Below are positions 3,037-18,448 of a stretch of 21,899 bases of DNA, one piece after another (the first letter of the stretch is position 1; every line of letters begins with the position of its first letter). Position numbers and translations under genes: made by a program. The DNA comes from a virus: positions 1-21,899 of IMG/VR virus record IMGVR_UViG_3300010885_008494; one strand, written 5' to 3'. Below the pieces are notes generated by a model. It did no database searches and was not told where the DNA came from. It worked only from the letters and a program-made list of their open reading frames with translations.

Positions 3037-3411
3037 ATGCGCATAAATGAACTATTAGAGGGTAAAATCTTCAATGATTTAGACTTCGTATCACACAAAC
3101 AAGATGGTAAACGAGAGATCAACTACGACCTTGCAGAAGACCTTGTACATTTCATGAATCAAGACGATCATGTTTATAGACGTATTGTACACCCAACTAT
3201 TTCAAAATTTATAGATCTCAGAGACGCAAAAAAACAAGTCAGTCCTAAAATATTCAAATCCGCAGTGGAAGAATGTTATAAGCAGTATATCAAGCATTTT
3301 CCGATTAGAGAACTTCCAGACGAAATTGACGAGGAAATGTGTCGTCAAGTTTGCGATAAAATGTACGAAGACGTTACTCAAGACCATTCTGATGGCACGT
3401 ACAAGGACTAA
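3037..3411 (+). CDS. Small phage protein with a capsid-targeting-like N-terminus (124 aa)
   Basis: The 124-residue acidic product is not a family I recognise. It begins MRINELLEG, in which the LLE-G step fits the (Leu/Ile)-x-Glu | small residue pattern cut by T4 prohead protease gp21. Several other proteins in this block start in the same way. The rest is mostly helical by eye, with acidic patches and three cysteines. It is the first gene after the late-promoter-like box at 2984 and sits two bases ahead of the 984-residue gene. I infer a late, possibly capsid-internal protein; nothing in the sequence shows an enzymatic role. Confidence 0.8.
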   Translation: MRINELLEGKIFNDLDFVSHKQDGKREINYDLAEDLVHFMNQDDHVYRRIVHPTISKFIDLRDAKKQVSPKIFKSAVEECYKQYIKHFPIRELPDEIDEEMCRQVCDKMYEDVTQDHSDGTYKD

Positions 3412-3413
3412 CT

Positions 3414-6368
3414 ATGTTCCTTCGTGAACTGTTTGTAAATCCTAAAAAAATCCTTTTGGAAGGCGGAAATATCTGGCCGGAGTCCGAGCACTTTGACCAA
3501 GCAATTGCCAACCACCTTGCACACGAAACAAACAAGTATCTAAAAGGTGTTCATTCAACTGTACATTTAATTGGTAGTGCCGCAACTCCTACTCCTGGAA
3601 AAATGAGTGGTGACTTAGATGTTATGGTTGATCTAAATCTATTAATGCAACAGTTTGGCACTAAGGATGGAAAAACTACCAGAGCAGAATTAGAAAAGTA
3701 TTTGCAAGGGCAAGGACTACCAACTAAGAAAACTGGAGTAACTGTACACATATTGTTGCCATACAAAGACAAGTTTTATCAAGTTGATATTAAAGCAGTG
3801 GCTAATGCAGACCGTGTTCACAAGTTTCACCACCATTCGATTCCACACGGCAGTCCGTACAAAGGTGTACACAAACAAATGATGATGAATGCCCTTGCAT
3901 CGAGCCAGAACATGTTGTGGTCGCCAGACGAAGGTCTATATGCAAGGGATGCCGCTGGAAAGAAATCAGAATTCATTAGTGACGATTTGGATGTGATTGC
4001 AAAAAGACTTATTGGCCCCGCGGCCAAAGCACAGGACTTAGGAAGTGTAGAAAGCATACTGGCTGCAATACCAGACCAAGCAAGACGAGATCAAATTTTC
4101 CAGCAGGCTAGTAGTGGTGCAAGTTGGCAGGCGGTAAGTCCACAATCAATCAATGAAGCGGCTGCGCCATCTGTGGGTCGTAAGTACCAACACATTGAAG
4201 ATTTGGTATTCACTAACGGTAGTGTTGGTGGATTACATGCTGTAGAACGCTTACGTCATATGACCACTAAGGGCAAAGGTATAGAATTAAAATGGGATGG
4301 TAGTCCTGTGGTATATTGGGGACGTGATGAAAATGGTGTGTTCCATATGTTTCCAAAAAATGCGTGGGATTATATAAAGCGTGGCACGACCCACACCAAG
4401 AGCGGTGTAAGTACCATGATGAACGACCCAGACGATGTGATGCAATTTATACTTGGCACTGGTAAAACAGAACCTGGCAAGGAAGCTCAACGCTCTGCAT
4501 TTGCACAAGGTCTAGCCAACCTATGGCCTTATTTCGAATCAATTAGTCCCAAGTCAGGATTTTTGGAAGGCGGCATCTTATTCAGTCCACTACAGCCTCC
4601 TGTATTAAATCCCACAACAGGTGATTGGGATTTTACTCCCAACATAACCAGTTTTCATATTCCTTCGAACAGTGATTTAGGTAAACGCATTGGAAAAGCC
4701 AAAGTTATGGTTGCGGCAACTGGCCATTACACACATATTGGTAGCGAAGAAGGCCGTTATGCTAATGCAGAACAGTTAAGCAGTCCTGATGTTATTGTGC
4801 AAGGTACAACTTATGTAGAACGTGCTCCTAAGATTGATCATGCTGGGTTAGATCATGCTGAAGCATATATTAAAAAGAACAAGGCCATCATTGATAGCTT
4901 TGTTGCTGGTCAACCTGGATTAACTAATCCTGGTGATAAGTTATACACGTTTTTTAATCAAAACCTGCGTGTAGCAGGAGTTAAACAAAAGTTTGTCAAC
5001 TGGGCTAATAGTACACTCAGTGCTGGACAAGCACAAAAATTAACTAGCCACCCTGGATTGGATGCAGTATTGACTGCTGTGGAAATGTTGACTAGTGAAA
5101 AGATGAAAGTGATTGCCGCATTAAGTAGTGGTACACATGGTGGCATTAGACAAACTAAACCTGAAGGCTATGTACAAGCACACCCTGGCGGTAAATTTAA
5201 GAATGATTTACCTGGACAGTTTGTTAAAACTATTGACCAGGCAAACTGGGCACCACGTAAAGACAATATTCAAGAAAATATCAATCGTACCGGTGAAGGC
5301 AAGGCCGCGGTTGTTGGGTGGGGTCGCGGTATGGGACACAAAGGCCATATGTATTTGGCTAGCAGTGTAATTACACAGGCTACCGAGACAGGCGCAGATC
5401 CTTACTTTGTTGTAAGTCGTACTGTAGGCAAGGACGATCCGATTACTCCAGAAGAAAAAATGCAGATATACCGTAAGGTATTTCCTAAACACGGGCATAT
5501 ATTCCATACTGCAACAGACGAAATGCCCGATTTGACTCGTGTGCTAACACAATTAGATAAACACGGCTATACCGATGTAGTTGTAGTTGTAGGTGAAGAT
5601 CAAAAGCATGCCTTAAGTTATGTTACACAATATAACGGCAGACCTAACAAAGCAGGCGAGATTCCGTTTACCTTTAACACATTAAATGTTATTAGTCGCC
5701 AGGAAACCAACGATCCAAGTCGCGAAGAGGAAGGGCCACGTGCTACCCCAATGCGTGATATTCTTAAAGATCCTAATGCCACAGAAGATGAAAAGTTTGC
5801 AGTATGGCGTGATTCCATGGATCCACAAATCAGCGATGAAGAAGTTTTAGATTTGATGCACAAAGCACAGCAACGCATGAGTGACCCTACCTTTGGAAAA
5901 GCACCAAAGAAAGCCAAGCCTGTAAAGGAGAATTTGGTTAAATATGCTAATAAGGTAATAAGAGAAATGCGAGCTAAAGAATTCGTTGCTGAAGGTCACC
6001 CAAATGCAGGTACAGGGCATACTACTGAGCTAGCTACCGATCACGATAATGTAATGAAAGGTGCAAGTCGTAGCCGCGACATTGGCGGGTATGATCGTGT
6101 ATATCACATGAACCGTTTGATGATGGCCATGGCTATGCATGACGGTAAAGGTCCTCATCCTGTAGACAGTGCCAAAGATACTTGGTTTGAAAAATACAAT
6201 ACTATGCATCCAATGACTCAAGAAGAAGATAATATGATTCGTGGTGCTATGAAAACAGTTCCAACAGATGGTAAACATGTTAGTAAATTTGCTCACAGTA
6301 AAGAAGCAGAAGGCGGCAATGTAGCAAGCCCAGTTGCCAAGCCTAAAAAGAACAAGTACGGAATATAA
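3414..6368 (+). CDS. 984-aa multidomain protein: nucleotidyltransferase, ligase-like and HxGH adenylyltransferase modules
   Basis: Four modules can be read. (1) Residues 50-130 have a Pol-beta-type nucleotidyltransferase pattern: GS at 54-55, SGDLDVMVD at 65-73 (acidic D67 and D69) and a third acid, D125. (2) Residues 260-440 resemble the ATP-dependent ligase/capping fold, with KWDG at 293-296 as the KxDG adenylation motif and FLEGGILF at 383-390 as a likely motif III-like segment. (3) Residues 630-785 look like an NMN- or nicotinate-nucleotide adenylyltransferase: GRGMGHKGH at 637-645 is the GH-x-GH motif, and GPRATPMR at 774-781 resembles the family's SAT-x-x-R motif. (4) Residues 852-984 begin MRAKEFVAEG and resemble the whole next gene product. 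gp21-like cleavage steps occur at ILLE-G (near residue 16) and INE-A (248/249). A packaged, injected enzyme acting on RNA, NAD or nucleotides is possible, but its substrate is unknown. Confidence 0.85.
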   Translation: MFLRELFVNPKKILLEGGNIWPESEHFDQAIANHLAHETNKYLKGVHSTVHLIGSAATPTPGKMSGDLDVMVDLNLLMQQFGTKDGKTTRAELEKYLQGQGLPTKKTGVTVHILLPYKDKFYQVDIKAVANADRVHKFHHHSIPHGSPYKGVHKQMMMNALASSQNMLWSPDEGLYARDAAGKKSEFISDDLDVIAKRLIGPAAKAQDLGSVESILAAIPDQARRDQIFQQASSGASWQAVSPQSINEAAAPSVGRKYQHIEDLVFTNGSVGGLHAVERLRHMTTKGKGIELKWDGSPVVYWGRDENGVFHMFPKNAWDYIKRGTTHTKSGVSTMMNDPDDVMQFILGTGKTEPGKEAQRSAFAQGLANLWPYFESISPKSGFLEGGILFSPLQPPVLNPTTGDWDFTPNITSFHIPSNSDLGKRIGKAKVMVAATGHYTHIGSEEGRYANAEQLSSPDVIVQGTTYVERAPKIDHAGLDHAEAYIKKNKAIIDSFVAGQPGLTNPGDKLYTFFNQNLRVAGVKQKFVNWANSTLSAGQAQKLTSHPGLDAVLTAVEMLTSEKMKVIAALSSGTHGGIRQTKPEGYVQAHPGGKFKNDLPGQFVKTIDQANWAPRKDNIQENINRTGEGKAAVVGWGRGMGHKGHMYLASSVITQATETGADPYFVVSRTVGKDDPITPEEKMQIYRKVFPKHGHIFHTATDEMPDLTRVLTQLDKHGYTDVVVVVGEDQKHALSYVTQYNGRPNKAGEIPFTFNTLNVISRQETNDPSREEEGPRATPMRDILKDPNATEDEKFAVWRDSMDPQISDEEVLDLMHKAQQRMSDPTFGKAPKKAKPVKENLVKYANKVIREMRAKEFVAEGHPNAGTGHTTELATDHDNVMKGASRSRDIGGYDRVYHMNRLMMAMAMHDGKGPHPVDSAKDTWFEKYNTMHPMTQEEDNMIRGAMKTVPTDGKHVSKFAHSKEAEGGNVASPVAKPKKNKYGI

Positions 6369-6387
6369 TATGCGAGCTAAAGAATTC
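5967..6387 (+). repeat. 18-bp direct repeat marking a duplicated gene module
   Basis: ATGCGAGCTAAAGAATTC occurs at 5967-5984 and again, identically, at 6370-6387, 403 bases apart. The first copy is in frame inside the 984-residue gene and encodes residues 852-857; the second is the start of the next gene. Both encode MRAKEF, and both proteins end in SPVAK-x-K-x-N-(K/R)-YG. The pattern indicates a tandem duplication in which the upstream copy has become fused to the multidomain gene, or else a shared start whose upstream stop was lost. Confidence 0.85.
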
Positions 6388-6840
6388 TTATCAGAACAAA
6401 ATGGCAAGGCAGTTATATACAAGGCCAAGAAATTTACTCACGGCAAACTCGGTATACCTAACGATCCTCTAGAAGCTCATAATACTCATAGCCGTTCACA
6501 AGATGCTAACGAATATGGTAGTCACCGTGAAAAATTAAATCCTGAAGCAGAACTTGTAATGCGTGGTGCTATTGGGGTTCCTAATGAAAACCCTTATGAT
6601 TTATACCGATTAGGCATGGCTATTGCAGGTGGCGATCGCAACATCCCAGGTGTAGATGCGCTAGGACAAACTGGATTGATTTTGCCATTCAGTGAACAAG
6701 AGCATCAAACTATTAATGCACATATTAGACGTCAAGGTCTTAAACCAGAAAAGCTCAGCACACATGGTAGTGAAGAACCTTTACAAAATAATAAAACTAG
6801 TCCTGTAGCTAAAATTAAACGAAATAGGTACGGTGTATAA
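6370..6840 (+). CDS. Virion-type protein related to the C-terminal module of the preceding gene (156 aa)
   Basis: The open frame extends upstream to 6334, but the ATG at 6370 is the better start. It lies one base after the stop of the preceding gene, has a GGA seven bases upstream, and gives the N-terminus MRAKEFLSE seen in the paralogous module. The 156-residue product has a YDLYRLGMAIAGG segment followed by a VD and a PFSEQEHQTI segment, matching YDRVYHMNRLMMAMA, VD and PMTQEEDNMI in the C-terminus of the 984-residue protein. It ends SPVAKIKRNRYGV. I have seen this type of domain in T4-like phage structural proteins but know no function for it. LSE-Q at residues 7-10 would be an atypical gp21-like site. 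It overlaps dps by one base (TAATG). Confidence 0.8.
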   Translation: MRAKEFLSEQNGKAVIYKAKKFTHGKLGIPNDPLEAHNTHSRSQDANEYGSHREKLNPEAELVMRGAIGVPNENPYDLYRLGMAIAGGDRNIPGVDALGQTGLILPFSEQEHQTINAHIRRQGLKPEKLSTHGSEEPLQNNKTSPVAKIKRNRYGV

Positions 6841-7289
6841 TGGAACACAACAAATATCATCTTGCTATTAAATCCGCGTTTGCCAGCGAATTTGCTTTTT
6901 ATTTAAAAGCACATAACTTTCATTGGAATGTAGAAGGTATTCATTTCCGCGAACTGCACGATTTGTTTGGAACAATTTACGAAGAAGTATTTGAAAGCAT
7001 AGATCCATTTGCAGAAAAGATACGTGCCATGGGTGCATATACTCCTGCAAGTTTGCAAAAGTTTAGTATGCTAAGTCAGCTAGACGATGAAAATGATATA
7101 CTACCTCCAGAACAAATGGTTGCAGAATTGCTAGCAGACAGCGAAAAAATGGCGGAAATATTCCGTGTGACATTTGACATGGCCGAAGGTGCTGGCGATC
7201 ATGGTCTCAGTAACTTCTTGGCAGACCGTCAAGATGCACACAAAAAACACTGCTGGCAACTACGTGCCACACTAAAGCACTATGGATGA
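6840..7289 (+). CDS. dps: Dps-family ferritin-like protein
   Basis: The 149-residue protein has the Dps signature at residues 23-62, including HWNVEG, a second His in ELHDLF, and DPFAEKI. Dps proteins form dodecameric shells that oxidise and store iron with peroxide, and some also bind DNA. Ferroxidase ligands H28, H40, D55 and E59 are present at the spacing of E. coli H51, H63, D78 and E82. The residue aligned with E. coli D67 is glycine (G44), although D41 is close by. The N-terminus is short and lacks the Lys-rich tail that E. coli Dps uses for DNA binding, so iron or peroxide detoxification is the likelier role. The gene sits among virion-type genes, overlapped by one base upstream and eight downstream, so it is probably co-expressed late. 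Confidence 0.93.
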   Translation: MEHNKYHLAIKSAFASEFAFYLKAHNFHWNVEGIHFRELHDLFGTIYEEVFESIDPFAEKIRAMGAYTPASLQKFSMLSQLDDENDILPPEQMVAELLADSEKMAEIFRVTFDMAEGAGDHGLSNFLADRQDAHKKHCWQLRATLKHYG

Positions 7290-7518
7290 ACTTGCCAGAA
7301 TACGTAAATTAGCAGGTATAACAGAATACAAAGGTATGATGCCCTATGCCGGCAGTAATATAAGTATTACAGGCACAGAAAAAAAGATTATAGAACGCGA
7401 GCAGAACATACAACCCGGAACAGAAGAATGGTTTAAACTATGGTTCAGTTTACCTAAATTCATGGGCGGAGAACATCCTGTAGTTCAGCATAGTCCAGGA
7501 TTCAGGAGTAGGAAATGA
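7282..7518 (+). CDS. Small phage protein of unknown function (78 aa)
   Basis: The 78-residue product begins MDELARIRKLAGITEYKG, a leader type (short amphipathic helix, then ITE) that fits the gp21-like hydrophobic-x-Glu pattern shared by this block. The middle has PGTEEWFKLWFSLP, a Trp-rich segment that I recall from small proteins of T4-like phages but cannot assign a function. It overlaps dps by eight bases and the next gene by four (ATGA), so translation is coupled on both sides. No membrane segment or metal site is visible. It may be a minor virion component. Confidence 0.75.
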   Translation: MDELARIRKLAGITEYKGMMPYAGSNISITGTEKKIIEREQNIQPGTEEWFKLWFSLPKFMGGEHPVVQHSPGFRSRK

Positions 7519-8021
7519 AATTAAAAGAATTGTTTAAGGAAAGTGGTTATAATCATGGCCATGCTGATCCACGAGCTCCACAGCTGGGATCAGATGAAAA
7601 GCGTGACCGCAAACGTGCAGAACTACAACACGAACTTGGACATGAAACCAACAACATTGCAATAACAATCAATGGTAAAACTTGGAAGGTTGTTCCATGC
7701 AAGGGCACCGCAGACAGCCGAGAAGAGCGCGAATACTTGCAACATATGAAAAACTGGGCTGAAAAGAAATCAGCTAGCTCAGGCAAAAAGTGGTCTGTGC
7801 ATCTAACAGGCGCACCTATTACTGAGTCAGCAAGTGCAGGCGCTACAAGTAGTGCCAGTATAGCTACTGTAGCCAACCCTGATTATGCAAATAATGCTAA
7901 CAAAAAGCCTGTAAAAAGTGTTAATGCACTGGATCAGGACGAAGTGAGCTTGTTTGGTACGCCTATGGAAACTGTAAAAAGTGCGTCCGGTAAGAAAGCC
8001 GCTATAATCAAAAGACGCTAA
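7515..8021 (+). CDS. Virion-type protein with capsid-targeting-like leader (168 aa)
   Basis: The ATG at 7515 follows a strong Shine-Dalgarno (AGGAGTAGGAA). The 168-residue product starts MKLKELFKESG, close to the T4 internal-protein type of leader. It then has an INGKTWKVVPCKG strand pair, a helix with KNWAEKKSASSGKKWSVHLTG, and a low-complexity Ala/Ser stretch after ITE-S (near residue 102), which could be a second processing site. The C-terminus is basic (KKAAIIKRR). I recall similar segments in T4-like marine phage proteins of unknown function. A basic, small, processed protein fits a capsid-interior role, but this is inference. Confidence 0.78.
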   Translation: MKLKELFKESGYNHGHADPRAPQLGSDEKRDRKRAELQHELGHETNNIAITINGKTWKVVPCKGTADSREEREYLQHMKNWAEKKSASSGKKWSVHLTGAPITESASAGATSSASIATVANPDYANNANKKPVKSVNALDQDEVSLFGTPMETVKSASGKKAAIIKRR

Positions 8022-8025
8022 ATAT
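8018..8025 (+). promoter_or_regulatory. T4-like late promoter candidate (CTAAATAT)
   Basis: CTAAATAT overlaps the stop codon of the preceding gene and lies 24 bases before the ATG at 8050. CTAAATA is a known variant of the late box in T4-like cyanophages. The distance leaves room for a transcription start and the purine-rich Shine-Dalgarno region (ATAACGGAG) before the ATG. It would allow separate late transcription of the 467-residue gene and those after it. The box is short and AT-rich, so confidence is moderate. Confidence 0.45.
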
Positions 8026-8049
8026 ATAACAAGATAACGGAGTATACTC

Positions 8050-9453
8050 ATGCCAGCAGAATTAGACCAAATGAACCCAGGAATGGATCAAATAGACAGC
8101 CCAGAAATGGACCAAGACGCACAAGATTATTCACAGCCAGATGGCGGACATGATCGTGAAGGTGCTATGGCCAAAGCTGACTTATACAAATTGGCTACAT
8201 ATTCACACAAATTATTCAAGCAATTACATGACAACGATCAAATGGAAGCATGGGTGCAAGCTAAAATTACCAAGGCTGCCGATTACATTGCATCAGTATA
8301 CCACTATCTAGAATATGAAATGAAGTTCAGCGAGTACGGACATCATTTGGACAATAGCGACACACTAAGTGAAGGACAAAAAATGAAATTCCAAGAAATA
8401 TTAGCAGAAGCCAAAGACAAGATGAAAGATCTCAAAAAGAGCCAAGCTGAAAAAATGAAGGGCAAGAAAGTTGAAGAAGGCATCTTGAGTGGTGGCGAAC
8501 GTGCTTGTGCAGAGTGTAACGGTACTGGCATGGTATACGAAGAGCCGAAGCCAATTCCTGATCATGTTAAAGGCAAAGTTGCCAAATATAACACAATGAT
8601 GAAGGCTACCAAGGCCGCTCACAAACGCATGGATGCCAACAACAACGGCATTCCAGACGATGAAGAGATGGACGAAGAGTTCGATGACAAATCCAAAGTT
8701 GGCGACACATTTAAAACTAAAACAGGTGTAGCAACAAAAACCGATAAAGGTGTTAAGCACACCAACACCAGTTACAAAGATGACGGTGAAGCAGAAGAAA
8801 AGTCAGGCAAGGGCATTAAGAGTCATGCCAAAGCACAATCGGCTGCCGAGAAGAAAGAAAAGGCTCCTGCACAAAAGCAAAGTCCTAAGAGTGCTAAGAC
8901 TTGGGGAATGAAAGACGGTGAAAAGTTTGACAACCGTGACAAGCAGAAAGATGAATCAGTTGCTGAAGGCAAAAAGAAAGGTGATGGCAACTTGGCCAAC
9001 AATGCCAAACCCTATGACAAAATCACACGTGGTGATGTTATTGCCGGACGTCTTGGAAAAGATGAAAAAGGCGGCAAGTCTGTTAAAGAAGCCGCACCAA
9101 GTGCAGGTCTAAGCAAAGAAAAAAAGTCTGCTACTGTTAAAGCTGCCAAAGCAGGTAAAGATATTGGAAAGCCAGGTAAAGGTTTTGCTAAACTAGCTAA
9201 GAAAGCTGGTGGTGGTGAAAAAGGTGAAAAGATTGCCGCTGCCGCTATGTGGAAAAACATCAAAGAAACTACTGCGTACATTGAAGAGAAAAAAAATCTT
9301 CCAGGCAAGCAAGAAAAGATCGATGTCGCTGAACCGAAAGGTAAAATTGATGGTAAGGACTTTGCCGCATTACGTGCAGGCAAGAAAGAAACTGTTAAAG
9401 AATCAGTAGATTTAGATCGTATGAAAGCACTAATGCAACGTCTTAATGGATAA
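8050..9453 (+). CDS. Lys-rich virion or core-type protein with multiple processing-like motifs (467 aa)
   Basis: The 467-residue protein has a helical N-terminal domain (about residues 40-97, including AKADLYKLATYSHKLFKQLH and YHYLEYEMKFSEYG), a type I recall from T4-like marine phage virion proteins. A CAECNGTG motif at 153-160 looks like a single DnaJ-style zinc half-site. DANNNGIPDDEE at 195-206 resembles a calcium-binding loop of the thrombospondin type-3 kind. From 215 onward it is low complexity, very rich in Lys, Ala, Gly and Glu, and probably disordered. Hydrophobic-x-Glu-small steps recur (LAE-A at 118-121, VEE-G at 141-144, VAE-G at 304-307, VKE-A at 345-348, VKE-S at 449-452), which suggests repeated cleavage by a gp21-type protease. 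It resembles a scaffold-core or internal protein more than an enzyme. Confidence 0.8.
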   Translation: MPAELDQMNPGMDQIDSPEMDQDAQDYSQPDGGHDREGAMAKADLYKLATYSHKLFKQLHDNDQMEAWVQAKITKAADYIASVYHYLEYEMKFSEYGHHLDNSDTLSEGQKMKFQEILAEAKDKMKDLKKSQAEKMKGKKVEEGILSGGERACAECNGTGMVYEEPKPIPDHVKGKVAKYNTMMKATKAAHKRMDANNNGIPDDEEMDEEFDDKSKVGDTFKTKTGVATKTDKGVKHTNTSYKDDGEAEEKSGKGIKSHAKAQSAAEKKEKAPAQKQSPKSAKTWGMKDGEKFDNRDKQKDESVAEGKKKGDGNLANNAKPYDKITRGDVIAGRLGKDEKGGKSVKEAAPSAGLSKEKKSATVKAAKAGKDIGKPGKGFAKLAKKAGGGEKGEKIAAAAMWKNIKETTAYIEEKKNLPGKQEKIDVAEPKGKIDGKDFAALRAGKKETVKESVDLDRMKALMQRLNG

Positions 9454-9457
9454 TTAT

Positions 9458-9880
9458 ATGGGATTTGCAGAACAACTATTAAGAGAGTTTGTTGAACAAG
9501 GCATAATCGACGAAGCTCCTATGAGTGATGAACAGTTAAGTGCATACTATACTGATCAGTTGACCAAGATGATGGCCACTGCCACACAGCCTTGGGAAAA
9601 AGCACAACTAATGGCTAGATTAGAAAATGTAAAACAAGGCGATCGTCCTCGATCAGCCAACGGTGGTCCTATTCCAATGTTGCCGCCGGCAGAATGGGAG
9701 CAAAAAACCGATCCTAAAATTGTACTACGCATTGTAGGAGTTAACGGTGCTGGTCTAAGTCCAAAATTCCAACAGGATCATAGTAGTTGGTTTGGCCAAC
9801 AGGCTACACGCATGGGATTGGAAGAAAGTACTGAATTAAATCATATCAAGAGTCTGGTTACAAAACTATCAGGAAACTAA
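9458..9880 (+). CDS. Phage protein of unknown function (140 aa)
   Basis: The frame also has an ATG at 9446, overlapping the end of the previous gene by eight bases and adding MDNY. The ATG at 9458 is preferred slightly because a GGA lies seven bases upstream. The product begins MGFAEQLLREFVEQGIIDEAP, again an amphipathic helix followed by a gp21-like IDE-A step. The middle is rich in Met, Gln and Pro (PIPMLPPAEWEQK), then come an ILRIVG-type strand and a C-terminal helix. No enzyme motif is visible. Its place between two virion-type genes suggests a minor internal or structural protein. Confidence 0.77.
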   Translation: MGFAEQLLREFVEQGIIDEAPMSDEQLSAYYTDQLTKMMATATQPWEKAQLMARLENVKQGDRPRSANGGPIPMLPPAEWEQKTDPKIVLRIVGVNGAGLSPKFQQDHSSWFGQQATRMGLEESTELNHIKSLVTKLSGN

Positions 9881-9882
9881 AC

Positions 9883-11961
9883 ATGGACATGAAACGCATA
9901 TTACAAGCGTTAGACCATGCAGAAACAAAACCCGTAGTTGGTCAGGACGACATGAAAAAATTCCTTCAAGTTGTAACTGAAGGAGCAAGTCCTCACAAGG
10001 TTGCATTACCAGTACAAATGGCCATGCAACACTATCAAGAGTCTCAACCTCAACAACCAATTATTAAAAGTCCTATCAAGACCAGTGTTCGAAAGTTCTT
10101 TAAAGAAGTAGAAGTTGAACATACAGATAAAATGGCAGAAAAGAAACAGTTATTACGACAATATAGTCAAACTATTGCTGAACGTGTATTGATGAGAGAG
10201 TTTAAAGAACGTCCGGACGATGAAAGTAACTTTGTGTACAAAGGTGATAATCCCAATGTCAAAGGTGCATTAGCAAAAGCTAGAACTCAGGCAGCTGGTG
10301 CAGACGATGATTTTGAAGCATTGATCATAAACAGTGATCGTGTTGCTACTAATTTAGAAAAAGCCCAAGATCAAATAACACGTCAGCAAGAGCGAGAAGA
10401 TGAACTAACTGATATACTGAGTGCAGCCGAAACTCGATTTAGAGAATTAAACGCCAAAGTTGCCGCAGGCGAAATCAACGATCAGGATGTGGCTACTGCA
10501 CAGGCTGCCCAAGAAATTGAAAAAGATGTAGATCATGCAAAAGCACAAGTAGGGCAAGATAGCGGGCATCAAGAAAAAACTTCTAAAACTAAAGCCGCAG
10601 ATAAAATTAAAGAACCCGAGATTAAAAAGTCTACTAATCAAAACCCTACTGTTAAAAAAGCTAGTACTAAAGATGCAGGAGCCGCCATTGATAAAATGGC
10701 TAGAATTAAAACACCCACGCCTAAAGTCAATACCAAACCCGCTGGTGCCGCAATTGATAACATGGTTAGAACTCCGGTTGCACAAACTGCACCTGCAGAT
10801 ACATCAGCCAATCCTGGTTTTCCCTTTGATACTTTTGCACATACAGCTAATACTATTAGGAACATGGCAAAACCTGACAATCCTAACCTAGTTCCAGACA
10901 AGCCGGTTAAAGATCCAAATCAACTTAATTTGGATTTAAAAAGGAAATCTACTCCAAAAGGAGTACAAAGTGCTGGCAGAAATTCGAAGGCATCGTCTAC
11001 TCCCAAAGATTTGCCAAAACCTAATCCTGCAGAGATTGCTTCTGCATTATATAAACGACTAGGCGAACCAATCCCTAAAGCTACTAAGAAGATTGACCCG
11101 TTCGCTAGTGTTGATAAAAACTTTGGTTCTCTCGAGGAACCCGCTATGCAAGCTGAGAATCACTACAACCAAGACGCCAATGATCAACAGTTGCCAGTGG
11201 ACCAACCCCAACCAGCACAGCAACCTGCACAAGATATACAACAACCTGCACAATATACTGATCCTCAAAATCAAAAACGTAACGAAATTGACTCAAACTT
11301 TCTTATAATTAGAAGAGGGTTAAAAAATCATTTACCTAGAGTAGATATTCATATAAATGGTGAAGGTATTACCGTGTACAGGTCACAGATGTATGCATTA
11401 ATACAAACATTAGGTCATATTAACAATCCCAAAACAGCACACGAAAGACGTGATAAAATTTTAAGTAGTGCGGTTGAATGGTTTGACTGGGTTGAAAGTA
11501 CCCCTACAAGGAAATGGATCGGACATTTTGACAATTGGTGGAAGAAAGAACAACGCCGAGCCAAAACGGCAAGATTACAAGCAACTGGCACTCAAGAATT
11601 GCCATTACACGAAACTGTACTAAATTATCTAGCAACTAAAGAAGGATTCCCCAATTGGATCGAAGCCAAGAAGATTTTAGACGAATCTGAATTTGTCAGC
11701 TTGGTACACCGTGCTTCCAAGTTGATTCACCAATTAAAAGAAAATGAAATCTCGGGACACAGCATGGGTTTCAAACCAGGGCCCGGCAGTCCTGGCATGC
11801 AAAGCAACGCACCGGATGGTGGGCATCTTGGCCTGGGTGAAAAAATGGGTGCAAAGAAAACTTTAAAGAACAACAATCCTTGCTGGACTGGTTACAAGCC
11901 AGTAGGTACCAAAAAGAAAGGCAGCCGTACTGTTCCCAATTGCGTTCCAAATAAAAAATAA
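9883..11961 (+). CDS. Large low-complexity virion-type protein (692 aa)
   Basis: The ATG at 9883 has an AGGA eight bases upstream; an in-frame ATG at 9889 is also possible. Residues 1-52 (including KKFLQVVTEGASPHKVALPV) match a type of N-terminus I recall from T4-like marine phages, with a VTE-G processing-like step at 31-34. Residues 150-225 are a likely coiled coil. A 14-residue unit (AGAAIDKMARIKTP and AGAAIDNMVRTPVA) repeats at 265-278 and 287-300. Residues 435-465 are rich in Gln and Pro. A Trp-rich folded region spans about 470-625. The tail has PCWTGYKPVG and VPNCVPNKK, with C667 and C687, a cysteine-paired ending that I recall from other T4-like phage proteins. The function is unknown; a structural or packaged internal role is likely. 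Confidence 0.8.
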   Translation: MDMKRILQALDHAETKPVVGQDDMKKFLQVVTEGASPHKVALPVQMAMQHYQESQPQQPIIKSPIKTSVRKFFKEVEVEHTDKMAEKKQLLRQYSQTIAERVLMREFKERPDDESNFVYKGDNPNVKGALAKARTQAAGADDDFEALIINSDRVATNLEKAQDQITRQQEREDELTDILSAAETRFRELNAKVAAGEINDQDVATAQAAQEIEKDVDHAKAQVGQDSGHQEKTSKTKAADKIKEPEIKKSTNQNPTVKKASTKDAGAAIDKMARIKTPTPKVNTKPAGAAIDNMVRTPVAQTAPADTSANPGFPFDTFAHTANTIRNMAKPDNPNLVPDKPVKDPNQLNLDLKRKSTPKGVQSAGRNSKASSTPKDLPKPNPAEIASALYKRLGEPIPKATKKIDPFASVDKNFGSLEEPAMQAENHYNQDANDQQLPVDQPQPAQQPAQDIQQPAQYTDPQNQKRNEIDSNFLIIRRGLKNHLPRVDIHINGEGITVYRSQMYALIQTLGHINNPKTAHERRDKILSSAVEWFDWVESTPTRKWIGHFDNWWKKEQRRAKTARLQATGTQELPLHETVLNYLATKEGFPNWIEAKKILDESEFVSLVHRASKLIHQLKENEISGHSMGFKPGPGSPGMQSNAPDGGHLGLGEKMGAKKTLKNNNPCWTGYKPVGTKKKGSRTVPNCVPNKK
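10675..10782 (+). repeat. Imperfect tandem repeat within the 692-aa gene
   Basis: Two copies of a 14-codon unit lie 66 bases apart start to start. They encode AGAAIDKMARIKTP and AGAAIDNMVRTPVA. The codons differ between copies, so the duplication is old or under selection at the protein level. It falls in a Lys/Thr/Pro-rich linker between the predicted coiled coil and the folded C-terminal region. Confidence 0.7.
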
Positions 11962-16594: not shown

Positions 16595-16773
16595 TGACTG
16601 AACTCCATAAAAGAACTGTAGTCAGAGCAGTAACTTATAGAATTATTGCATTGCTGATTACGGCTCTATGGACCGGATTAAGCAATGCTATAATAATTCA
16701 TGTGATACTAACTGCAATACATTATGCACACGAACGGGTATGGTTAAAAATAAAGTGGGGTCGAATTGAATAA
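16594..16773 (+). CDS. Small DUF2061-type membrane protein (59 aa)
   Basis: An ATG at 16594, overlapping the clamp stop as TAATG, opens a 59-residue frame. The product begins MTELHKRTVVRAVTYRIIA, has two hydrophobic segments (about 17-27 and 31-41) and ends with HYAHERVWLKIKWGRIE. The KRT start, the YRIIA/TWRIIA-type first helix, the HERVW motif and the WGR ending are those of the DUF2061 family of small inner-membrane proteins, whose function is unknown. It fills the gap between clamp and the next gene and overlaps the latter by eight bases, so it is probably translated as part of that unit. Confidence 0.82.
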   Translation: MTELHKRTVVRAVTYRIIALLITALWTGLSNAIIIHVILTAIHYAHERVWLKIKWGRIE

Positions 16774-18448
16774 GAACTTAACAGCACATCAAAGCGATTA
16801 CGCATATTTCCTGCCGGCAACGTCTGGGTTTTATAGTACCTATATAGGTAAACAGCGTTATAGCAATTATGTAGATCCTGCACGTATTCCTGCCAGCTTT
16901 GGTCCTATGGGCATTGAAGCAATGAATTATTTGAATCCCAATGCGGCGTTCTATTTTGATCATTGCTTATATTCAGCTGGACATGCCAACTTAGATTTGA
17001 CCAAACCTGATCCAAGTGAAGACATGTTCCGTAATAGAGATCGATCAACCAGTTGGGTGTTGGGTGATTCTGGTGGATTCCAGATTGGTAAAGGTGTATG
17101 GGAAGGCGAGTGGAATGACCCAACAGGGCCAATAGTTGCACAACGTATGGCCGAAGCTGTTGCCAAAGGCGTTGAACACGTGCCAATACTAAAAGATGAT
17201 GGTACACCTAAACATGACAAACATGGCAATACCAAAATGCTCAAGATTGATCATGTTAAAATTTATCAAGCCAAACTAGATGCGGCACAAAAGAAACGCG
17301 AACAAGTACTAGCATGGATGGACGCATTAATGGACTATGGCATGGTACTTGATATTCCAGCATGGGTTGGTCGTAGCCCAGTAGGTGCTAAAAATAGTTG
17401 TATTAGTGATTATGATCAAGCAGTTGAGGCCACAAAATACAACAACAATTATTTTATCAAGCATCGTACAGGTGCCTGCAAGTTCTTGAACGTGTTGCAA
17501 GGTGAGAATCACGGGCAAGCAGAAGATTGGTATCAGAAAATGAAAGAATTTTGCGATCCAACAAAGTATGATAAACCGTTTAACGGTTGGGCTATGGGTG
17601 GACAAAACATGTGTGATGTCGAACTCGTACTAAAAAGATTAGTAGCATTGAAATTCGATGGACTTCTTGAAAAAGGTCATCAGGATTGGATGCACTTCCT
17701 AGGCACTAGTAAATTAGAATGGGCACTCCTGCTAACAGACATCCAACGTGCGATAAGGAAATATCACAATGAAGACTTTACCATATCTTTTGACTGCGCC
17801 TCGCCTTTTCTGGCAACAGCAAATGGACAGATCTACGTCCAAACAGAAATTACAGACAGACAAAAATGGCTCTATCGCATGTTGCCAAGTGTTGACGACA
17901 AAAAATACGCCAACGACACACGACTGTTCAAAGACGCAGTAGTACAAGACAAATGGTTTGACAATTTTGAATCCAGTCCTCTGATGGATGGAGTGGCAAT
18001 CAAAGATATTTGCATATATGCTCCCGGCGACCTAAATAAGATAGGTAAAGAAGGACGTACCAGTTGGGATAGCTTTACCTATGCCATCATGATGGGCCAT
18101 AATGTATGGATGCATATCAATAGTGTACAAGAAGCCAATCGTCAATATGATGCTGGCTTGTGTCCTGATATGCTAGTGGATGAACAGTTTGATAGGATTT
18201 ATTTTAAAGATGTAGCGGATCTGATATTTTCTAGAGATACCAAAGAAGAAGCGGATGCAATTATTGAAACATTTAAAAAGTTCTTTATGAGTATTCCTGG
18301 TACTAGAGGTTATACAGGTAAACGACTTATTAATTCAAATACCATGGCCGAAGAACACTTTGATATTGACATAAATTTAACTATCGAAAAAGCAGTTGCA
18401 AAAGAAGCACATAAACCCGTACTTAACGAATCACTATTTGAGTTTTAA
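16766..18448 (+). CDS. dpdA: TGT/DpdA-like base transglycosylase with polymerase-like clamp-binding tail
   Basis: The 560-residue protein has the signature residues of tRNA-guanine transglycosylase in order: DSGGFQ at 101-106 (base-recognition aspartate), LDIP with D196, LQG at 244-246, AMGGQ at 276-280 (TGT has a GG here), FLGT at 311-314 and SFDCASP at 341-347, where D343 corresponds to the nucleophile. TGT swaps guanine for a 7-deazaguanine; phage DpdA enzymes do this in DNA. The four zinc ligands of bacterial TGT are not seen. The last five residues, SLFEF, equal those of the DNA polymerase. The start is TTG with GGGG five bases upstream, because no ATG lies before residue 48. A tRNA-acting enzyme is the alternative, but the clamp-like tail favours DNA. 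No preQ0 synthesis genes are in this window. Confidence 0.8.
   Translation: MNKNLTAHQSDYAYFLPATSGFYSTYIGKQRYSNYVDPARIPASFGPMGIEAMNYLNPNAAFYFDHCLYSAGHANLDLTKPDPSEDMFRNRDRSTSWVLGDSGGFQIGKGVWEGEWNDPTGPIVAQRMAEAVAKGVEHVPILKDDGTPKHDKHGNTKMLKIDHVKIYQAKLDAAQKKREQVLAWMDALMDYGMVLDIPAWVGRSPVGAKNSCISDYDQAVEATKYNNNYFIKHRTGACKFLNVLQGENHGQAEDWYQKMKEFCDPTKYDKPFNGWAMGGQNMCDVELVLKRLVALKFDGLLEKGHQDWMHFLGTSKLEWALLLTDIQRAIRKYHNEDFTISFDCASPFLATANGQIYVQTEITDRQKWLYRMLPSVDDKKYANDTRLFKDAVVQDKWFDNFESSPLMDGVAIKDICIYAPGDLNKIGKEGRTSWDSFTYAIMMGHNVWMHINSVQEANRQYDAGLCPDMLVDEQFDRIYFKDVADLIFSRDTKEEADAIIETFKKFFMSIPGTRGYTGKRLINSNTMAEEHFDIDINLTIEKAVAKEAHKPVLNESLFEF

Follow-up and report, generated by a model that had tools for sequence, protein, structure and literature searches.

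The gene block at positions 3037-11961 of the virus record IMGVR_UViG_3300010885_008494, a fragment of 21,899 bases that was analysed over its whole length (the window), is very probably a T4-like cassette of cargo proteins that are targeted to the prohead, partly as polyproteins, and cut by a homologue of the gp21 protease. The internal gp21-type sites of these proteins separate shuffled modules, and this is a stronger result than the leader motifs at the N-termini. With somewhat less confidence, we consider it likely that several enzymes travel behind one leader as polyproteins and are released by the maturation protease, that one site is copied from the capsid protein and that modules are reshuffled at such sites. 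The motifs, their conservation and their placement at module boundaries are observed directly, as are the protease gene and the scaffold and capsid sites of the relatives.

A conserved cassette between clpA and gp43

The block follows clpA and a 198-aa gene and precedes an 85-aa gene with a weak match to transcription regulators, the gp43 DNA polymerase gene and a gene in the place of gp45, which is named as a putative clamp gene by its position and length, its PHROG being functionless. Among named phages, large T4-type phages have the polymerases nearest to this gp43 (49% to Sinorhizobium phage Phosso), and related IMG/VR records are up to 345 kb in size. We compared the window with about 140 related loci, using gene starts from our own simple ORF caller. 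The block is a conserved cassette that is located between clpA and gp43 in the relatives too, and the set of records gives the impression of a phage of freshwater origin. A megablast search against phages yielded no match, and sequence searches of the PDB yielded matches at chance level only. Elsewhere in the window, a 560-aa protein without a PHROG match (16766-18448) is conserved in the relative G001 (163139-164845). The features of the block are as follows.

3037-3411, plus strand: 124-aa protein, leader MRINELLE-G (Glu8 codon at 3058-3060), a match to the leader regular expression
3414-3461, plus strand: leader of the 984-aa polyprotein (3414-6368), MFLRELFVNPKKILLE-GG, residues 1-16
3462-4157, plus strand: module 1, predicted pol-beta-type nucleotidyltransferase, ending SINE-A (Glu248, 4155-4157)
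4158-5276, plus strand: module 2, DUF6267 (Pfam PF19782, E 2.6e-13), ending NIQE-N (Glu621, 5274-5276)
5277-5930, plus strand: module 3, NMNAT/cytidylyltransferase-like, then VKE-N (Glu839, 5928-5930)
5967-6365, plus strand: module 4, internal leader MRAKEFVAE-G (Glu860, 5991-5993) and C-terminal module
6370-6840, plus strand: 156-aa protein, leader MRAKEFLSE-Q (Glu9, 6394-6396), paralogue of module 4
6840-7289, plus strand: Dps-like ferritin (Pfam Ferritin, E 4.8e-23), leaderless, conserved in the cassette
7282-7518, plus strand: 78-aa protein, MDELARIRKLAGITE-Y, doubtful site
7515-7826, plus strand: first module of the 168-aa protein, leader MKLKELFKE-S, ending ITE-S (Glu104, 7824-7826)
7827-8018, plus strand: second (SATAGATS) module of the 168-aa protein, beginning SASAGATSSASIATV
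8050-9453, plus strand: 467-aa Lys-rich protein, leaderless, sites at Glu108, 120, 143, 306, 347, 406 and 451
9446-9880, plus strand: 144-aa protein, ...LLREFVEQGIIDE-A
9883-11961, plus strand: 692-aa protein, MDMKRIL...MKKFLQVVTE-G (Glu33, 9979-9981) before the PHKV module

Modules of the 984-aa protein

The hydrophobic-x-Glu sites of the 984-aa protein (Glu16, 248, 621, 839 and 860) are all located at or beside module boundaries. A preliminary description of the window had pointed to extra sites inside this protein; they are present, yet their number is that expected by chance (5 versus 4.3), and it is their positions that are non-random. In an alignment of 38 sequences, M1, L3, R4, E5 and E16 of the leader were invariant while residues 8-15 varied, and only positions 16 and 248 had a site in over one third of the sequences. 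A set of 17 dereplicated proteins with the nucleotidyltransferase and DUF6267 modules contained 42 sites, 17 of them in the leader (17 of 17 proteins), 16 at the junction and 9 elsewhere. The AlphaFold model of the 984-aa protein was least confident at residues 1-4, 6-17 and 241-257 and near the C-terminus, as exposed linkers at the leader and the junction would show, and confidence was low throughout the region of module 4.

Fold and motifs together suggest that module 1 is a pol-beta-type nucleotidyltransferase: the model matched DNA polymerase lambda/beta with a Foldseek probability of 1.00 (by VIA, Z 12.1, rmsd 3.2, 168 aligned), and G54-S55 and D67-L-D69, corresponding to the G-S and D-x-D motifs, are invariant. 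In G004, locus L080 and other relatives, DUF6267, the second module, stands alone as a gene that encodes its own leader, the L080 protein reading MLLNELFSNLKE-AAPAVGRKYQH; the junction site was kept in 35 of the 38 aligned sequences, and the KWDGSP motif of DUF6267 is invariant or nearly so. We also considered whether DUF6267 is a polynucleotide ligase, of which KWDG is suggestive, but hhalign scores to T4 ligases did not rise above controls, and ligases were absent from the fold lists, which were filled by one domain.

Module 3 is a predicted enzyme of the NMNAT/cytidylyltransferase HxGH superfamily, judged by its fold (by VIA, Z 10.8 to PPAT and 10.6 to NadD) and by the invariant motif H25-x-G27-H28, and it also matched a cytidyltransferase PHROG (E 8.9e-20). 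Most relatives encode its equivalent as a gene of its own with a leader, and the main form of the cytidylyltransferase among them, MLLREFLNRTGEGK, starts with a leader yet lacks a hydrophobic-x-Glu upstream of the body, a point against the proposed reading. Module 4 is of the same kind as the 156-aa protein encoded by the next gene. The equivalent of the whole 984-aa protein is split into two or three genes in most relatives, with leaders of their own near the boundary positions.

Leader peptides

In T4, the protease cuts after L/I-x-E, and the first ten residues of IPIII act as the targeting signal (PMC9026906). A regular expression for leaders was modelled on T4 gp21 substrates and run on all called T4 ORFs (n=251), where it matched ten, namely IPII, IPIII, Alt, gp21, gp22, gp24, gp2, 61.1, vs.6 and vs.7. 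The first six of these are well known as core proteins or as substrates of gp21. Since the expression was written with some T4 substrates in mind, this result speaks for its specificity and is not an independent discovery. In the window it matched 3 of the 9 block genes and 0 of the 13 others (Fisher p = 0.055, small table), a count of 3 that was reached in 0 of 500 shuffles. Sites within the first approximately 35 residues were present in 6 of the 9 block genes versus 2 of the 13 others (p = 0.02), and a similar excess was obtained for G001, G002 and G004 (p = 0.02, 0.009 and 0.01). With few genes per genome and modest p-values, we place the weight on conservation and on module junctions. A looser expression was dropped as too unspecific.

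The preliminary description had listed seven leader motifs in consecutive genes other than dps. All seven were located in genes of the window, with ILLE-GG at Glu16, IIDE-A at Glu23 and VTE-G at Glu33, and the genes are not strictly consecutive, because the run is broken by the 467-aa protein, which is leaderless here and in its 57 clustered homologues alike. By regular expression or alignment, the genes starting at 3037, 3414, 6370 and 7515 encode N-terminal leaders some 10-20 residues long, with [L/I]-x-E at the end and a small residue next to it. P3 is Phe in MKLKELFKE, and it is often Val and sometimes Met elsewhere, with Ser or Thr also at P1', a pattern wider than the L/I rule of T4. Families whose bodies do not cluster (the 124-aa proteins, the nucleotidyltransferase-DUF6267 proteins, the cytidylyltransferases, the MRAKEF paralogues and the proteins in the position of the 168-aa protein) share an N-terminus that reads M-x-[LI]-[RK]-E-[LF] or nearly so, and further large proteins start with the related MN[IL]R[DE]L. 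Synonymous codons vary in the leaders, indicating that it is the peptide that is kept.

T4-like leaders were also observed near the head modules of G001 (99648-100853, locus L169, MKVYEIIVEKKVHE-G) and G004 (101753-102907, locus L197, MKIYEIISEQQTQE-G), so that genes for cargo or core proteins are probably to be found beyond the cassette as well. Far from the cassette, three G001 genes (297071-298942, 321278-321886 and 336904-337314) have the leader-like starts MRVLDILKEFAPTT, MKIKDILMKEDGPI and MKIKELLTESLNKR.

Conservation of leaders and junctions in the other block proteins

The 124-aa family carried the leader in 50 of 57 clustered homologues, with a site density 2.9 times that expected. 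Copies of the MRA-x-[EQ]F type had a hydrophobic-x-Glu in 37/37 stand-alone and 29/30 fused cases. The second module of the 168-aa protein is found on its own behind MKISEILDE-like leaders (8 distinct sequences) and in fused form in 39 distinct sequences with 12 upstream contexts, where P1 was Glu in 39/39 and P3 was V, I, L or M in 39/39 while the residues further upstream varied; related sequences are not independent, and the 12 contexts are therefore a better count of events than the 39 sequences. Similarly, [LIV]-x-E-[GAS] precedes the PHKV module in 46 of 46 distinct sequences of the 692-aa family at varying distances from the start, and sites in this family reach 2.2 times expectation. 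For the 144-aa protein a single homologous protein was found, in which the site reads IIE-A. A first count of junctions (104/199, 41 expected) is not used as the main number, as misplaced starts gave spurious junctions.

One alternative is that targeting to the prohead is real and the internal hydrophobic-x-Glu motifs are uncut remnants of fused leaders, the fusions remaining whole in the virion. Targeting and processing are separable in T4, where IPIII with Asp at leader position 10 is still packaged but no longer processed (PMC9026906), and the MRAKEF junction retains a whole leader, as a recent remnant would. However, the SATAGATS, DUF6267 and PHKV junctions have lost the upstream leader while keeping P3 and P1 across many contexts, and remnants without function should decay evenly. 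We regard uncut remnants as unlikely.

Three members of the block depart from the leader-bearing pattern. The 467-aa protein has 7 internal sites versus 2.3 expected, bearing out the earlier remark on its extra sites, and its family averages 8.9 sites per protein versus 2.9 (z = 24 against shuffles), while the control families of clpA, gp45 and the 198-aa protein had no comparable excess; judged by its sequence, it seems to fit better as a multiply cut core protein than as a leader-bearing cargo protein or delivered enzyme. No leader was found in the Dps-like protein or in 55 clustered homologues. The ITE-Y motif of the 78-aa protein is present but weak as a site, since Tyr or Phe follows in the relatives too; the Glu is conserved in this family and sites are not enriched.

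Some observations on the same proteins stand apart. The C-terminal tail of the 692-aa protein, NPCWTGYKPVGTKKKG-RTVPNCVP (NPCW...VPNCVP, 11830-11958), was found in 210 phage records, mostly of cyanophages but also of Melnitz and Halorubrum tailed viruses, and the proteins are hypothetical in the rows listed. Pfam matches below the cut-off, Paramyxo_P_V_N for the 168-aa protein (E 0.0065) and MCE for the 692-aa protein (E 0.0086), were rejected as noise.

Protease, scaffold and capsid sites in relatives

It had been proposed that a gp21-like protease should be sought elsewhere in the genome and its sites compared in scaffold and capsid proteins. No Peptidase_S77 match was present in the 21.9-kb window record, which is without head genes, but such a protease was found in 5 of 13 long related records (E 5e-27 to 2e-26), all five of which carry the block or part of it; the 8 records without a match are all 93 kb or less. 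The scaffold protein gp22 of three relatives has 16, 16 and 17 hydrophobic-x-Glu sites versus about 4 expected. In the capsid protein gp23, YLME-S or YLAE-S is found a short way upstream of the part alignable with T4 gp23, the equivalence of this site being taken from its distance to the aligned region, as the MAFFT alignment misplaces the N-arm of T4 gp23.

The G004 sequence is YLAE-SATAGATSAGNV in the capsid protein and DVSE-SATAGATSAANV at the cargo junction, with identity extending about 10 residues past the bond. The sequences suggest that one cargo junction copies the site of the capsid protein itself, either because the module came from the capsid N-arm or because the protease reads the primed side. 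The G004 sequences at 91805-92980 and 173913-174389, between them those of the cargo module and the major capsid protein, share the ten identical residues ESATAGATSA directly at the predicted cut site.

These data also bear on the alternative that the Glu and the hydrophobic residue open a folded module and are kept because it needs them to fold. Sites stand at module starts throughout, and ordinary proteins have conserved E columns too. Against this, the same motif precedes at least 4 unrelated modules, model confidence is lowest at the sites, the second residue of the motif varies, and gp22 is enriched in this pattern, which is also present at the gp23 site, making a role in folding improbable. 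Least credible of all is a chance origin, with amphipathic N-termini and short hydrophobic-x-Glu motifs being frequent anyway and meaningless here, for although site totals in the 984-, 124-, 156- and 692-aa proteins are each close to expectation and the looser expression lacked enrichment in G001, chance is already contradicted by the position and conservation of the sites at the junctions and by the excess in the 467-aa family over its controls.

Homologues in cyanophage virions

The T4-GC190 cytidylyltransferase, which is homologous to module 3, was found in S-SM1 virions by mass spectrometry (PMC3037559), and similar enzymes have been reported from other cyanophage virions, with a caution by the authors on co-purification (PMC10665884). 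The S-SM1 protein begins MKKFSAFLNE-AERS and the transferase homologue of ACG-2014d MKKFSDFLSE-A. In Melnitz-2, three proteins encoded a few genes apart start with MQGFKTFLSE-A, MLTLINFSKYITE-D and MKKFSEIIE-A, the last being the transferase and the second DUF6267-like by its KWDGAP motif. The genes for DUF6267 and the transferase adjoin in cyanophages such as Syn1 and S-SM1. The T4-like leader is missing in some cyanophage homologues (Syn1 and S-PM2, both as annotated). A run of genes with T4-like leaders follows the helicase gene in Melnitz-2 (locus L211, 4297-11369), an isolated and culturable methylophage. Taken with the protease of the relatives and their gp22 and gp23 sites, the presence of T4-GC190 in S-SM1 virions supports the earlier suggestion that the block encodes packaged internal proteins.

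Comparison with known systems

The block resembles IPI-III and Alt of T4 in its short hydrophobic-x-Glu leaders and varied bodies behind a shared leader, and in the occurrence of a gp21-type protease and a scaffold in the same phages, here in relatives. It differs from the T4 internal proteins in being a conserved multi-gene cassette with enzymes, polyproteins and boundary sites, and its leaders read MxLRELF or MRAKEF rather than MKTYQEFIAE, the closest T4 sequence being MAKINELLRE-S of gp24. The cyanophages have a homologous enzyme in T4-GC190 with DUF6267 as its neighbour, as a separate gene and not as the third module of a chain. As is proposed for the block, a prohead protease related to gp21 processes many head proteins of phiKZ and SPN3US, including inner-body and ejection proteins, behind a short Glu-terminated motif, but this is S/A-x-E or A-x-E, and SPN3US has long propeptides, often >100 residues, whereas here short leaders end in L/I/V-x-E (PMC5694885, PMC9026906). 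Polyvalent proteins such as P1 DdrB, the N4 vRNAP and their relatives are multidomain effectors thought to be packaged in the head (PMC5512222); they often have a metallopeptidase domain of their own, in place of which the block has boundary sites like those of a prohead protease, and domain searches of the block proteins found no match to a peptidase domain. Novelty was judged against the open-access literature, in which no paper on DUF6267 was found and, the T4 review aside, no paper on cyanophage capsid-targeting leaders, subscription journals not being covered.

Proposed mechanism

By analogy with T4, we infer targeting, cutting and packaging in the window phage. The leaders of most block proteins (M-x-[LI]-[RK]-E-[LF]-[LF]...) would bind the prohead core, and a protease of the gp21 type, with its gene in another part of the genome, would cut after hydrophobic-x-Glu, removing the leaders and separating the modules before DNA packaging, as modelled on T4 (PMC9026906, PMC3012670). 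A polyprotein would thus carry several modules into the head behind one leader, each to be released at its boundary sites: the nucleotidyltransferase, DUF6267, the NMNAT-like cytidylyltransferase and the repeated C-terminal module from the 984-aa protein, and two modules from the 168-aa protein. The 467-aa protein would be a core protein that is cut to pieces. More speculatively, the enzymes may reach the host together with the DNA, for early action on NAD+ or nucleic-acid chemistry, NAD+ repair by the NMNAT-like enzyme against NAD+-consuming defences being one possibility (PMC9503650), and Dps might ride along bound to the DNA.

A sequence rule of this kind would make the head cargo of uncultured T4-like phages readable from genomes alone, and it suggests by what mechanism cytidylyltransferases may come to be in the cyanophage virions where they were detected. 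If cargo modules are indeed jointed at protease sites, this would give a new view of how phages swap and combine the proteins that they package.
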